Shown here: one piece after another, positions 7,935 to 13,424 of the stretch
Numbering within the stretch: the stretch's first letter is position 1
Layout of the letters: each line of letters opens with the position of its first letter
NCBI GenBank assembly: GCA_003161615.1
Contig: PMOB01000032.1
Location: 55,577 to 119,576, forward strand
Direction: 5' to 3'
Length of the DNA: 64,000 bases
From: Actinomycetota bacterium
GTDB lineage: Bacteria; Actinomycetota; Thermoleophilia; Gaiellales; Gaiellaceae
Notes under the pieces: generated by a model
The model's database searches: none
Seen by the model: the letters and a program-made list of their open reading frames with translations, nothing else
Told to the model about the DNA's origin: nothing
Program-made: the position numbers and the translations under genes

Positions 7935-8933
7935 CTAGTAGCCGAGCAGGCGCACTTCCTCGCGCCGCTCGCGGGCGAAGAAGTGGACGCCGTCGACAAA
8001 GCGCACCCAGTTGCAGCGGGTGCACATGACGAGGGAATGCGTGCGAGCGCTGTCGGCGAGGAAGCGGACGCCGCGGAGCAGGTCGCCGTTCGAGACGCCC
8101 GTCGCAGCGACGATCACCTCGCCCGGCGCGAGATCCTCGGTGGTGAAGACGCGCTCGTAGTCCTCGATCCCGGCCTCTCGCAGCTCATCGATCTCGCGGC
8201 GGGAGGTCGGCCAGAACTGCGCCTGCAGCTCCCCGCCGAGACAGCGCAGTGCCGCGGCCGAGAGCACGGCCTGCCGCGTCCCGCCGATCCCGATCGCGAG
8301 GTGGTCGTTCGTGCCGCGGATCGAGGCGGAGATCGCGGCCGTGACGTCGCCGTCCTGGATCAGCTTGATTCGGGCGCCGGCGTTACGGATCTCCTCGATC
8401 AGGTCGTGGTGGCGCGGGCGGTCGAGGATGATCGTCGTCACGTCATTGACGCGCCGTCCGAAGGCCGCCGCGATCGCCTCGATATTCTCGCCGATCGGCC
8501 GGAGGAGGTCGATCGAGCCGCGCGCCCGCGGCCCGACGGCCATCTTCCGCATGTAGATGTCGGGGAGCGTCGTGAAGCGGCCCGGCTCGCCGATCGCGAT
8601 CATCGACATCGCTCCGTTGCCGCCGCGCGCGACGACACCGCGGCCCTCGAGCGGATCGAGGGCGAGGTCGACCTCCTTGCCGCCGCTGCCGACGATGGCG
8701 CCCGGCGCCAGCCCACCGGAGTCGTCGACCGAGCCGAAGACGACGCGGCCGCTGATCGGGAGGATGTCCAGCGTCGTGCGCATCGCAGTCGCGGCCGCCT
8801 CCTCGGCGGCGTCCTCGTCGGCCCGCCCGAGCCAGCGCGCAGAGATGAGCGCGGCCCGCTCGGTCGCGCGGAGATAGGCCTGGCACTGGCACGGCTCCTC
8901 CTGCGGGACGATCTGGGACTCCTGCTCGCTCAT
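7935..8933 (-). CDS. glpX: fructose-1,6-bisphosphatase class II
   Basis: GlpX signatures (DPLEGRGVVARGGNGAMSMIA, GIGGTRQAVLSAAALRCLGGELQAQFW, AATGVSNGDLLRGVRF). Confidence 0.95.
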   Translation of the reverse strand: MSEQESQIVPQEEPCQCQAYLRATERAALISARWLGRADEDAAEEAAATAMRTTLDILPISGRVVFGSVDDSGGLAPGAIVGSGGKEVDLALDPLEGRGVVARGGNGAMSMIAIGEPGRFTTLPDIYMRKMAVGPRARGSIDLLRPIGENIEAIAAAFGRRVNDVTTIILDRPRHHDLIEEIRNAGARIKLIQDGDVTAAISASIRGTNDHLAIGIGGTRQAVLSAAALRCLGGELQAQFWPTSRREIDELREAGIEDYERVFTTEDLAPGEVIVAATGVSNGDLLRGVRFLADSARTHSLVMCTRCNWVRFVDGVHFFARERREEVRLLGY

Positions 8934-9811
8934 TTCGCCTCCCTGCTTCGATCCGCGGCGTCGAGTACGAGGTCGGCGACCGTTCGCGCCGCCCGGTCCG
9001 CGTCGTCGTTCTCTATCACCTGGACGCCTGCGAGGTGCGCTCGCTCCACGATCAGCTCCTGCAGGCGCTGGATGTCCTCGAACCGCTCGAGGTAGCGCGA
9101 AACGGGTCGTTCGGAGTCCTCGTCGCGGTAGCGGAAGTGGCGTTCGTGCTCCTCCTCGTCCTCGATCGCGAGCACCACGAAGACGGACACGGCGCGCTCG
9201 GGTGCCGGCAGCTCGACCATGCCCGGCACGAGGTGGACGCCCTCGAGCACGAGCGACCAGCCTTCCTCGAGCGCGCGCTCCGACGAAGCGCGCACGCCGA
9301 CGAGGACGCTCCGCGCCTGGGAGACGAAACCGAACTCGAGCGGATCGTCGGCGTCCGGGAAGGCGTCGCCCGCTTCAAAGCTCGAGTGGTGGACGGACGG
9401 CATGAAGTCGTCGGAGAAGAATGCGCGCATCGTCTGGCGGATGAAGTCCGTCGACGTGACGCGCGTGATCCCGAAGCGGTAGGCGAGCTCGGTGGCCACC
9501 GTCGACTTGCCGGTGCCGGTGGCGCCGCCGATGAAGACGAAGATCGGCAGGTCGAGCTCTCGCAACTCCTGGTAGCGGCGCAGCCGCTTGATGCTCTCGC
9601 TTCCCTCCTTCTCGCCGAGGACATCCACCGCCAACGCCTCCAACCGCTCGAGCTCGATGCTGCGGACGCCGCGTTCCAGCAGCTCGTCACCGACGCGGGT
9701 GGCGAGCGCGTAGGCGCGATGCGCGGCAACCCCGGCGGCCATGAGCGAGCGGGCCATCAGGCCACGCGAATAAGGAAGCCCGAGCTCTCCGCCGCCGAGC
9801 GGGAGCGGCAT
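8930..9811 (-). CDS. 2-phosphoglycerate kinase-like P-loop kinase
   Basis: IFVFIGGATGTGKSTVATELAYRFGITRVTSTDFIRQTMR...PSVHHSSFEAGDAF typical of archaeal 2PGK; TTG at 9835 is an alternative start overlapping the upstream stop. Confidence 0.82.
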   Translation of the reverse strand: MPLPLGGGELGLPYSRGLMARSLMAAGVAAHRAYALATRVGDELLERGVRSIELERLEALAVDVLGEKEGSESIKRLRRYQELRELDLPIFVFIGGATGTGKSTVATELAYRFGITRVTSTDFIRQTMRAFFSDDFMPSVHHSSFEAGDAFPDADDPLEFGFVSQARSVLVGVRASSERALEEGWSLVLEGVHLVPGMVELPAPERAVSVFVVLAIEDEEEHERHFRYRDEDSERPVSRYLERFEDIQRLQELIVERAHLAGVQVIENDDADRAARTVADLVLDAADRSREAK

Positions 9812-9831
9812 GATCCGGCGCGGCTCGCTGC

Positions 9832-11013
9832 TCAAGTCCGGCTCCTCTCCGGCACGAGCGCGAGCAGCCGCTCGTCGAGCTCGTCGGAGACGACGTCGTT
9901 CGCTGCGAGGACGACTTCTGCGCCCCGTGCGAGTGCCGCCTCGGCGACGACGTCGATCGCGGCGGCCTTCAGCTCGACGAGATAGACCTCGGCGTCGACG
10001 GTCTCGAGCTCCTCCCTGAGCGCGTCGCGTCGAGCGAGATTGCGGGAGACGTGCACGACGTCGGCGTCGAGGCCGTCGGTCGGCGCCGGCCCGGTCGTGA
10101 ACACGGCGGTGCGGCGGCCGGCGAGCGGTTCGACAGGCCGTAGCCGGAGCTCCGCGGAGACAACCGGGATGTCGACGATCGCGGCGATCTCCTTCCGGTC
10201 GGCGCCGCCCGTGTCGACGACGAGGTCGGAGATGAGGACCCGGTAGGCGTTGAGGCCGGCACGGACGTCGTGAGCACCGTTCGTGACCAGGATCCGTGCG
10301 TCGGCCGCGATCGGCGGCAACGCGGCGCCACTGCCGTCGAAGACGATGATGTCCGGCTCGAGCTGCGCGGCAAGCCGCGCGCCGTCCAGCACGTTGTCGG
10401 CCAGAGGAGCGCCCGCGAGGCCGCCGCCGGCGCGGCGGCAGCCGACGGTCGGAACGCCCACGAGCGCGGCGGTCTCGAGGTGGTCGGACGCGGCGTGGCG
10501 TCCGGAGCGGGCGAGCGCGAGGAGGTCGTCGAGTGTCGGCGGCGTCTCGATCAGCTCCGGCTCTGCCGGCCCGCCGCGTCCCATCGCGACCACGACGACG
10601 CGGCGGTCCTCCGCGAGCAGCCGCGCGACATGCCCGGCGACCGCGGTCTTGCCGACCCGCTTGCCGAGGCCGATCACCGCGAGCGACGGCGTGTCGACCG
10701 GCTCCAGGGGAGGCGGCTCGAAGCGAAAGTCGGCGCCGACGTAGGGCATGCCGAGCGCGAGCACCCGCGATGCCCAGAGCATCCGCTCGCGCGGCCCGAG
10801 CACCGGCTCGTCGGACAGATCGATGACGACATCCACCTCCACGGCGTCGAGGGAGTCGACGAGCGGCACGCCGTAGTCGTCGCCCCCGCGCAGTTTCTCG
10901 GTGCCCCCGACGAGCAGTGCCCCGACGACCTCGTACGGCAGCACCGCGAGGACGTCCCGCACGACCGGCGCGTAGTGCTCTCCGTCGATCAGCACCAAGG
11001 CCCGGCGCCTCAC
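9832..11013 (-). CDS. cpgS: cyclic 2,3-diphosphoglycerate synthetase-like protein
   Basis: N-terminal ALVLIDGEHYAPVVRD and internal P-loop GLGKRVGKTAVAGHVA as in CpgS; GTG start overlapping upstream stop (GTGA); 393 aa. Confidence 0.78.
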   Translation of the reverse strand: MRRRALVLIDGEHYAPVVRDVLAVLPYEVVGALLVGGTEKLRGGDDYGVPLVDSLDAVEVDVVIDLSDEPVLGPRERMLWASRVLALGMPYVGADFRFEPPPLEPVDTPSLAVIGLGKRVGKTAVAGHVARLLAEDRRVVVVAMGRGGPAEPELIETPPTLDDLLALARSGRHAASDHLETAALVGVPTVGCRRAGGGLAGAPLADNVLDGARLAAQLEPDIIVFDGSGAALPPIAADARILVTNGAHDVRAGLNAYRVLISDLVVDTGGADRKEIAAIVDIPVVSAELRLRPVEPLAGRRTAVFTTGPAPTDGLDADVVHVSRNLARRDALREELETVDAEVYLVELKAAAIDVVAEAALARGAEVVLAANDVVSDELDERLLALVPERSRT

Positions 11014-11792
11014 AAGGAGCGAACCTCGTCCTCGATCTTCGCCGTGTACTTCTCGTACGTCTTCGTGTCGGTCGAGAACTGGATGATCCGCTCCTGCTCG
11101 TGGAACGGGTACCTGCGCCAGACGCTGACATGCGTCCCCTCGACCTCGATCACGTTGTAACAGGGCCGTCCGTTGCCGCGAAGCCGGGAGGACGAGACCG
11201 TGCCGGCATTGACGACGAAGAGGTTCTCGAGCCGCCACGCGTACGGGACGTGCTTGTGCCCGGCGAGGACGAGGTCGACGTTGGCGCGCTGGAGCGTCTC
11301 GAGCGTGTCGCCGGCGTCGTTGACGATGTTGCGCTCGCGGCCGGTTCCCGGCACGGGCAGCAGGTGGTGGTGGAGGACGAAGACGCGCAGGTCGGCCTCC
11401 TCGGCGAACTGCTCCTCGATCCAGCGGTAGCGGCCGCGGCCGATCTGGCCGTTGTCGAGGTCGGGCTCGCTCGAGTCGACGGCGACGATCGTCGCGTTCC
11501 CGACGCGCAGGACCGAGTTCCGCTCGCCGAACAGCTCCTCGAAGTGAACGTAGCCGACGTTCCGCGAGTCGTGGTTGCCCGGGATCACGACCATCGACTT
11601 GCACTCCACCTTGTTGAGGTACTCCCGCGCGAGCGCGTACTCGTCCTTGAAGCCGTGCGAGGTCAGATCGCCGGAGATGACCACGACGTCCGGCTCCATC
11701 TCGTTCACCTCCGCGATGGCGCGCTCGAGGTGTTGCGGGAGGAAGTACTGCTGCCCGCAATGGAGATCCGAGAGCTGGACGATGCGGAACAT
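11010..11792 (-). CDS. calcineurin-like metallophosphoesterase
   Basis: QLSDLHCG, VVISGDLT, GNHDSR, HHHLLPV, GHKH metal-binding motifs. Confidence 0.93.
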   Translation of the reverse strand: MFRIVQLSDLHCGQQYFLPQHLERAIAEVNEMEPDVVVISGDLTSHGFKDEYALAREYLNKVECKSMVVIPGNHDSRNVGYVHFEELFGERNSVLRVGNATIVAVDSSEPDLDNGQIGRGRYRWIEEQFAEEADLRVFVLHHHLLPVPGTGRERNIVNDAGDTLETLQRANVDLVLAGHKHVPYAWRLENLFVVNAGTVSSSRLRGNGRPCYNVIEVEGTHVSVWRRYPFHEQERIIQFSTDTKTYEKYTAKIEDEVRSL

Positions 11793-11798
11793 CGGCGA

Positions 11799-11804
11799 AG
11801 GCTA
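11799..11804 (-). promoter_or_regulatory. leaderless-type -10 of the metallophosphoesterase-cpgS operon (TAGCCT, 6 nt to ATG 11792)
   Basis: TAGCCT-TCGCCG-ATG. Confidence 0.65.
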
Positions 11805-11814
11805 AGCGATAGGC

Positions 11815-12798
11815 CTAGAGAAGCCAGCGCACCGGGTAATAGAGCGCCGCTGCGACGAGCCCGGCCGCGGGCAGCGTCAGCAGCCAAGCGAACACGATGT
11901 TCCCGGCCACGCCCCAGCGAACGGCCGAGAGCCGCCGCGTCGCCCCCGCGCCCATCACCGAGCCGGTGACGACGTGCGTCGTCGAGATCGGGAAGCCGTA
12001 GTGGGTACCCGTCCAGAGGGTCGCCCCGGCCGCGATCTGCGCTGCGAAGCCGTGCTCCGGCTGCAACCCGTAGATCCGCTGGCCGAGCGTCCGGATGATC
12101 CGCCAGCCGCCCGCGTACGTCCCCATGGCGATCGTCAGGCCAGCCGCGATCTTCACCCAGGTCGGGATGTAGAAGCTCGAGATGGAGCCGTGCGTGTACA
12201 GCGCGAGCGCGATCACACCCATCGTCTTCTGTGCATCGTTCGCTCCGTGCGTGAACGCGACCCATGTTCCGGAGAGGAGCTGTCCCAGACGGAAGCCCCG
12301 GTGCGCGGTGCCGGGTGTCAGACGGTGGAAGAGCCGGTAGATGAGGACGAGCAGGAGGAACGCTCCGACAAACCCGATCACCGGCGAGGCGAGTCCGGGG
12401 AGGAGCACTTTCTGCCAGATGCCCGTCCACTCGACGCCCTTCGAGCCCGACTGCACAAGGGCAGCGCCGATCAAGCCGCCGACGAGGGCATGGGTGGAGC
12501 TCGACGGGAGCCCCGCCCACCACGTCAGCAGGTTCCAGACAATCGCGCCGAAGAGCGCCGCGAGGAGGGTCTTCTCCGTCGCAAGGCCTGTGTCGATGAG
12601 CCCGCTGCCGACGGTTTTCGCGACCGCGGTCGTGACGAAGGCGCCGGCGAGGTTCGCGGCGGCCGAGACGAGCACCGCCAGTCGCGGCGAGAGCGCGCGC
12701 GTGCCGACCCAGGTGGCGACGTAGTTCGCCGTGTCGTGGAAGCCGTTCGTGAAGTCGAACGCCAGCCCGACCGCGACGACGAGGACGACCAGGAACAC
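11815..12798 (-). CDS. pitA: PiT family inorganic phosphate transporter
   Basis: DFTNGFHDTAN and GANDAQKTMG signature repeats; GTG start at 12798. Confidence 0.95.
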   Translation of the reverse strand: MFLVVLVVAVGLAFDFTNGFHDTANYVATWVGTRALSPRLAVLVSAAANLAGAFVTTAVAKTVGSGLIDTGLATEKTLLAALFGAIVWNLLTWWAGLPSSSTHALVGGLIGAALVQSGSKGVEWTGIWQKVLLPGLASPVIGFVGAFLLLVLIYRLFHRLTPGTAHRGFRLGQLLSGTWVAFTHGANDAQKTMGVIALALYTHGSISSFYIPTWVKIAAGLTIAMGTYAGGWRIIRTLGQRIYGLQPEHGFAAQIAAGATLWTGTHYGFPISTTHVVTGSVMGAGATRRLSAVRWGVAGNIVFAWLLTLPAAGLVAAALYYPVRWLL

Positions 12799-12800
12799 AG

Positions 12801-13424
12801 CTACTTGTTCTTGACGAGGATCGCCTCGAGAACGTCTGCGGCGTTCTCGCATGCGTCGACCGCCTCTTCCAGGCTCTCGTGGATGTCCTTCCAGCGGATC
12901 ACCACAAGCGGGTCGGCGCCGTCGGCGAAGAGCGAGGAGACGGCCTCGTGAGTCAAGCGGTCGCCCTCGTCCTCGAGCTCGCGCAGCTCGATCAGCACCC
13001 GCTTCGAGACCTTGAAGCCTTCGAGCCGGCTCATCGCCTCGGCGAGCTTGACGGCGGCGCGGCCGATCACCTGCGCCTGGCCGGGGGCCGGATGGCGAAT
13101 CTCGCGAACGCCATAGGAGACGATCTTCCCGGCCGCCTCGTCGATGTAGTCGCAGATGTCGTCGAGCGCGCCCGCTAGGCGGTACATGTCGTCGCGGTCG
13201 AATGGCGTGACGAAGGTGCGGTTGATGAGATCCACGAGCTCGTGCGTGAGGCGGTCGCCCTCGTGCTCGAGCTCCTTCACCTCTCGCGCGAGATCGTCGA
13301 CGCCGTCCGGGAACCGCTCGAGGAGGTCGACGAGGAGCCGGGCGATCTCCACGATGTTCGCGGCGGCAGCGTTGTAGAGCTCGAAGAACTCGCGTTTCTG
13401 GGGGATCAGATTGAACGGCGCCAC
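12801..13424 (-). CDS. DUF47/PhoU-like Pit accessory protein
   Basis: Repeated LEHEGDRLTHE / LEDEGDRLTHEA motifs typical of DUF47; located upstream of PiT. Confidence 0.93.
   Translation of the reverse strand: MAPFNLIPQKREFFELYNAAAANIVEIARLLVDLLERFPDGVDDLAREVKELEHEGDRLTHELVDLINRTFVTPFDRDDMYRLAGALDDICDYIDEAAGKIVSYGVREIRHPAPGQAQVIGRAAVKLAEAMSRLEGFKVSKRVLIELRELEDEGDRLTHEAVSSLFADGADPLVVIRWKDIHESLEEAVDACENAADVLEAILVKNK

Follow-up and report, generated by a model that had tools for sequence, protein, structure and literature searches.

A probable gene module for cyclic 2,3-diphosphoglycerate metabolism in Actinomycetota not known to be thermophilic

Introduction

Cyclic 2,3-diphosphoglycerate (cDPG), a protectant rich in phosphate, has been described, in papers of 2023 and 2025, as exclusive to hyperthermophilic methanogens. 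The closest described systems are archaeal: the cDPG synthetase (cDPGS) of Methanothermus fervidus, whose structures include 8ORK and the 2,3-diphosphoglycerate (2,3-DPG)/ADP-bound form 8ORU (PMC10690619), and two adjacent genes of the hyperthermophile Pyrococcus yayanosii, PYCH_14390-400, assigned to cDPG synthesis in PMC4890121, the consulted passages of which make no mention of a phosphoesterase neighbor. Breakdown is represented by a membrane-bound cDPG hydrolase of Methanobacterium thermoautotrophicum, known from activity alone in the account given of it in PMC1224877 (van Alebeek 1994); no gene for a cDPG hydrolase was found in the open-licence papers searched. Since 2-phosphoglycerate kinase (2PGK) is also present in Thermus and Deinococcus (PMC1274311), this enzyme alone is not diagnostic of the pathway. 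Here we analyzed a stretch of 64,000 nucleotides (hereafter, the window) from contig PMOB01000032.1 of a Gaiellaceae genome (Actinomycetota; assembly GCA_003161615.1), which contains four overlapping minus-strand genes (Table 1) coding for a metallophosphoesterase (MPE), a cDPGS homologue (cpgS), a 2PGK homologue, and the fructose-1,6-bisphosphatase GlpX. As in P. yayanosii, the two genes assigned to cDPG synthesis are adjacent. An earlier interpretation of this locus made without database searches (the sequence-only reading) had taken it for a cDPG operon, and our analysis supported it as right in substance.

We propose that the operon is likely to be a bacterial cDPG module comprising synthesis and breakdown, in hosts that are not known thermophiles. 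What sequence and structure show directly is which families the proteins belong to, that their catalytic residues are conserved, how the genes are ordered and that they occur together across the lineage. From this we infer what the enzymes do, in which direction the flux runs, and that the pool serves as a reversible store of phosphate, energy or protectant. In the proposed scheme, 2PGK would phosphorylate 2-phosphoglycerate to 2,3-DPG, which the cDPGS homologue would cyclize with ATP to cDPG; MPE would then hydrolyze cDPG to 2,3-DPG and/or dephosphorylate 2,3-DPG, and would thereby send the pool back to glycolytic intermediates, returning phosphate and carbon. The cDPG module involves no new biochemical principle; new here are its breadth in bacteria and how strongly it is tied to a single phosphoesterase subfamily in bacteria and archaea alike. 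If the proposal is true, synthesis genes in soil, fen, palsa, groundwater and gut lineages would alter the view of the purpose of cDPG, bacterial cDPGS genes would widen the choice of enzymes for producing an industrial extremolyte, and a candidate gene for cDPG breakdown makes a question dating from the early 1990s directly testable.

Results and Discussion

Genes for the Synthesis of cDPG

The cpgS product matched the solved M. fervidus enzyme (PDB 8oru/8ork; 1.3e-62, about 40% identity) over residues 3-378 of its 393, which represents near full-length homology, and it also matched a second cDPGS structure, 9sxb, at 4e-66. Its AF2 model (pLDDT 93) aligned with 8oru over 450 columns with a TM-score of 0.90 (query-normalised) and contained the two-domain fold, including the N-terminal domain that is unique to cDPG synthetase. 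The next-best fold, LpxK, reached a TM-score of only 0.43-0.45, and profile searches of both the Pfam and NCBIfam libraries gave no model above threshold; on these grounds a generic P-loop or GTPase identity was rejected. In order to evaluate the active site, residue roles were taken from PMC10690619 and the M. fervidus reference sequence was copied from the printed alignment, in which small numbering errors are possible. Of the 12 ligand contacts published for this enzyme, the window protein retains 10, and it shares with the M. fervidus enzyme the P-loop GKRxGKT and the 2,3-DPG and Mg ligands. Among 32 cDPGS sequences, that of the window being one of them, residues E45, K46, K145, R146, K149, T150, E404, and K406 show no variation, and only one sequence departs from D208; all these 2,3-DPG, Mg and phosphate-binding positions are identical in the window protein. 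The identification of a cDPG synthetase made in the sequence-only reading was thus borne out by a wide margin in both sequence and fold. The outcome set beforehand as refuting that reading, best hits to generic GTPases or kinases with active-site residues absent, was looked for and did not occur.

In a quick, midpoint-rooted tree the archaeal cDPGS sequences, M. fervidus included, nested among actinobacterial ones of greater diversity. The archaeal genes may have descended from the actinobacterial ones or share an ancient origin with them. The tree gave no support to the idea that the window genome recently acquired its gene from an archaeon in one transfer, and, being of this kind, it does not fix the direction.

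The kinase encoded downstream gave its best curated match with the 2PGK model NF003259 (8.1e-75, 252 bits), as compared with 77 bits for mevalonate-3-phosphate 5-kinase and 20 bits for adenylate kinase, and a mevalonate-3-phosphate 5-kinase identity was accordingly rejected. The match extends over about 279 residues and includes the P-loop GGATGTGKST, features common to M. fervidus-type 2PGKs; the two curated models of the family (NF003259 and NF008994) matched all 26 family kinases tested. The kinase identity given in the sequence-only reading therefore agrees with the best curated family.

Three features of these two proteins weigh against the assignment of the synthesis steps. The 2PGK score lies under the NCBIfam trusted cut-off of 343 bits, which is the annotation threshold, and the protein is therefore labeled a 2PGK-family homologue and not a certified equivalog; in this score, and in being the operon partner of cDPGS, it differs from M. 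fervidus-type 2PGK. The window cDPGS falls short of the length of the solved M. fervidus chain by about 65 residues. Finally, on the adenosine/ribose side T353 is kept, but the position of E305 lies within a deletion, so that one ATP contact is lost, and P335 has no clean mapping. The lack of the segment around the adenosine-contacting E305, together with the fact that no report of bacterial cDPG was found in the literature searched, would suit bacterial cDPGS-like enzymes that had diverged to another ATP-dependent substrate, such as a different vicinal bisphosphate or some related acid phosphate. However, the substrate residues E45, K46, K145, R146, and K406 are among the invariant ones, the kinase that produces the known substrate is encoded next door, and both the position of the archaeal sequences in the tree and the close agreement in fold speak against such divergence, which we regard as improbable. 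We thus consider it highly likely, as judged from sequences and models, that 2PGK and cDPGS constitute the synthesis half of a cDPG module. Apart from its length and the lost contact, the window cDPGS differs from the M. fervidus enzyme in its bacterial host, belonging to lineages mostly not known as thermophilic.

Distribution and Gene Order in Bacteria

When 84,980 species genomes were scanned with no more than two short peptide patterns, 237 relatives emerged, 80 of which were kept. These were mostly from Actinomycetota (Thermoleophilia, Rubrobacter, Acidimicrobiia, Coriobacteriia, Aquicultor, and Geothermocultor), the rest being a few Calditrichota, Neomarinimicrobiota and Acetothermia, plus archaea. 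Fen, palsa and groundwater are among the sample sources named in their record titles. The open-licence literature yielded no paper describing cDPG genes in Actinobacteria, and bacterial cpgS may well be annotated as such in databases. Within 149 Actinomycetota genomes, cDPGS occurred in 87, and its two partners followed it with the same counts: cDPGS and MPE were both present in 86 genomes, with one genome having only cDPGS, one only MPE, and 61 neither, and the figures for cDPGS and 2PGK were again 86, one, one, and 61 (Fisher 9e-40; neither the counts nor this value are corrected for shared ancestry). The gene directly upstream of cDPGS is MPE in 72 of the 87 genomes, and the one directly downstream is 2PGK, likewise in 72; every one of the 87 actinobacterial cDPGS genes has MPE and/or 2PGK adjacent. 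Among the relatives of the window's own order, cDPGS was found in 33 out of 41 genomes, several of the genomes without it being incomplete. Six of the eight cDPGS-less genomes are also devoid of the other two genes of the trio; another (G019) is without 2PGK and has a phosphoesterase match of just 78 bits, and the remaining one (G018) retains a second MPE subtype (see below).

These counts also bear on the possibility that 2PGK mainly supplies 2,3-DPG as the cofactor of a 2,3-bisphosphoglycerate (2,3-BPG)-dependent phosphoglycerate mutase (dPGM), cDPGS being incidental. The presence of 2PGK in Thermus and Deinococcus (PMC1274311) indicates that the kinase exists outside cDPG pathways, and one actinobacterial genome (G071) has 2PGK alone. 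Against this, cDPGS and 2PGK occur together in 86 of the 87 genomes, and the window genome encodes a cofactor-independent phosphoglycerate mutase (iPGM; TIGR01307, 600 bits), and in the roughly 95% of the genome that is present (about 5% is missing) no histidine phosphatase reached the cut-off of a dPGM model. With iPGM present and no clear 2,3-BPG-dependent mutase, 2,3-DPG is therefore not obviously required as a mutase cofactor, and we regard a cofactor role as very improbable.

In deep-branching Actinomycetota (loci L039, L042, L044, L045, L048, and others) the MPE-cpgS-2PGK trio lies inside a long conserved array. By eye, we take the genes upstream of it to be for homoserine/threonine synthesis and those downstream to be transaldolase, rho, rpmE, prfA, and prmC.

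The Metallophosphoesterase

MPE belongs to PF00149 (3.1e-21; 77.1 bits vs. a cut-off of 21.5), and the metal-ligand motifs DxH, GD, GNHD, HH, and GHxH are invariant, together with a GRER loop, across 21 sequences of its subfamily. The PDB structures nearest to its AF2 model (pLDDT 85) are Rv0805 and GpdQ, class III phosphodiesterases with which it shares the calcineurin-like fold and the binuclear metal motifs. It differs from them in its low identity (20% or less in the structural alignment), a family-specific loop (HHHxxPxPxTGRERN), an RLRG motif and its linkage to cDPGS. The loop, in the form HHHxxPxPx(T/A)GRERN, is common to the bacterial and archaeal MPE sequences inspected, and this suggests one conserved polyanionic substrate. 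Among curated NCBIfam models, the one nearest to the family is that of the anti-phage phosphoesterase DS9_1, matched at a score far under its cut-off; this likeness probably reflects only the shared catalytic domain.

In archaea, Thermococcales and a Thermoplasmata archaeon have next to cDPGS-2PGK a member of this subfamily with two MPE domains in tandem (Table 1). Just one GRERN loop was found per fused protein, and the two domains may therefore differ in role. In a phylum sample of methanogens the MPE is single-domain and usually distant from cDPGS, and both genes were present in 95 genomes, one gene only in 10 and 7, and neither in 8 (p 2e-4, likewise without correction for ancestry). Gut Methanobrevibacter (L077, L080, and other loci) retain a full-length cDPGS, which is at odds with a role in heat protection alone.

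The suggestion that MPE acts on cDPG, a guess in the sequence-only reading, gained strength from the finding that the genes occur together or side by side in Actinomycetota as well as in archaea, and we lean towards MPE as a candidate cDPG hydrolase and/or 2,3-DPG phosphatase. Its function might lie elsewhere, for instance in the hydrolysis of cyclic nucleotides or glycerophosphodiesters, with the cDPGS homologue making cDPG and the two genes being linked for another reason. The nearest solved structures would agree with this, as would weak profile matches to SpdA and CpdA and the occurrence of a second MPE subtype, scoring about 300 bits, in some genomes without cDPGS (G107 and G018). This last observation tells against a role in cDPG breakdown, and so do the methanogens that carry MPE or cDPGS without the other and the apparent solubility of MPE: no membrane segment was apparent when its sequence was inspected by eye, with no predictor run, in contrast to the membrane-bound activity described for M. 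thermoautotrophicum in the account cited above, which otherwise corresponds to the reaction proposed here. On the other side, it is the adjacent MPE subtype that tracks cDPGS throughout Actinomycetota, the family recurs beside or together with cDPGS in Thermococcales and methanogens, and the GRER loop is kept in both bacteria and archaea. A role elsewhere is thus rather unlikely, and hydrolysis of cDPG or 2,3-DPG remains our preferred proposal for MPE. The second MPE subtype occurs as second copies away from cDPGS in many genomes, and alone in a few.

Taking these data together, a broader proposal can be made, though tentatively: cDPG might be a phosphate/energy store of ancient origin and wide occurrence among Actinomycetota living at ordinary temperatures, and not an archaeal heat protectant, the MPE subfamily of bacteria, Thermococcales and methanogens being its hydrolase.

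Organization of the Locus and Neighboring Genes

Table 1. Features of the cDPG locus in the window, and fused MPE genes at archaeal loci (locus numbering).
Feature	Position	Strand	Remarks
Metallophosphoesterase (MPE)	11010-11792	minus	ATG start; PF00149; calcineurin-like, GpdQ/Rv0805-type fold; candidate cDPG hydrolase or 2,3-DPG phosphatase
cpgS, cDPG synthetase (cDPGS) homologue	9832-11013	minus	GTG start; GTGA overlap with MPE; PDB matches
2-Phosphoglycerate kinase (2PGK) homologue	8930-9835	minus	TTG start; TTGA overlap with cpgS; NF003259
GlpX, class II fructose-1,6-bisphosphatase	7935-8933	minus	ATG start; ATGA overlap with 2PGK; PF03320, TIGR00330
-10-like TAGCCT, possible leaderless promoter	11799-11804	minus	From sequence; -12 to -7 of the MPE ATG
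Pit-family phosphate transporter	11815-12852	minus	PF01384, 1.4e-92; ends 22 bases before MPE
PhoU-like protein (PhoU_div/DUF47)	12801-13424	minus	PF01865, 3e-22; overlaps Pit
Fused tandem MPE, Thermococcales/Thermoplasmata loci	L079 9153-10652; L094 4649-6169; L096 9165-10676; L090 9654-11147		

The four open reading frames and the 4-base overlaps between successive ones were confirmed where the sequence-only reading had placed them, and the GTG and TTG starts are consistent with the N-termini of relatives. The -10 element proposed ahead of MPE is present as described, and TAGC(C/T)TT is found again just ahead of the MPE gene in close relatives having an ATG start. It is displaced there by a few bases, the strict spacing being kept only in the window. 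Because of this recurrence, a promoter at this site is plausible.

The transcription unit had been drawn as the four genes, overlooking the Pit and PhoU-like genes upstream. Given the short distance between Pit and MPE and the presence of the PhoU-like gene, the unit may therefore be longer: transcriptional read-through from Pit into MPE is possible, and Pit may be an upstream member of the same unit. The identity of GlpX is clear (PF03320, 7.2e-105; TIGR00330, 262.6 bits; both exceed the cut-off), but the link to gluconeogenesis that had been drawn from it is weaker, since it is chiefly within the order of the window that GlpX adjoins the trio, with a few further loci elsewhere. A phosphate transporter and a fructose-1,6-bisphosphatase next to the trio are no more than suggestive of a store role. 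The Pit and PhoU-like genes are also close to MPE in several close relatives, an arrangement that fits phosphate storage.

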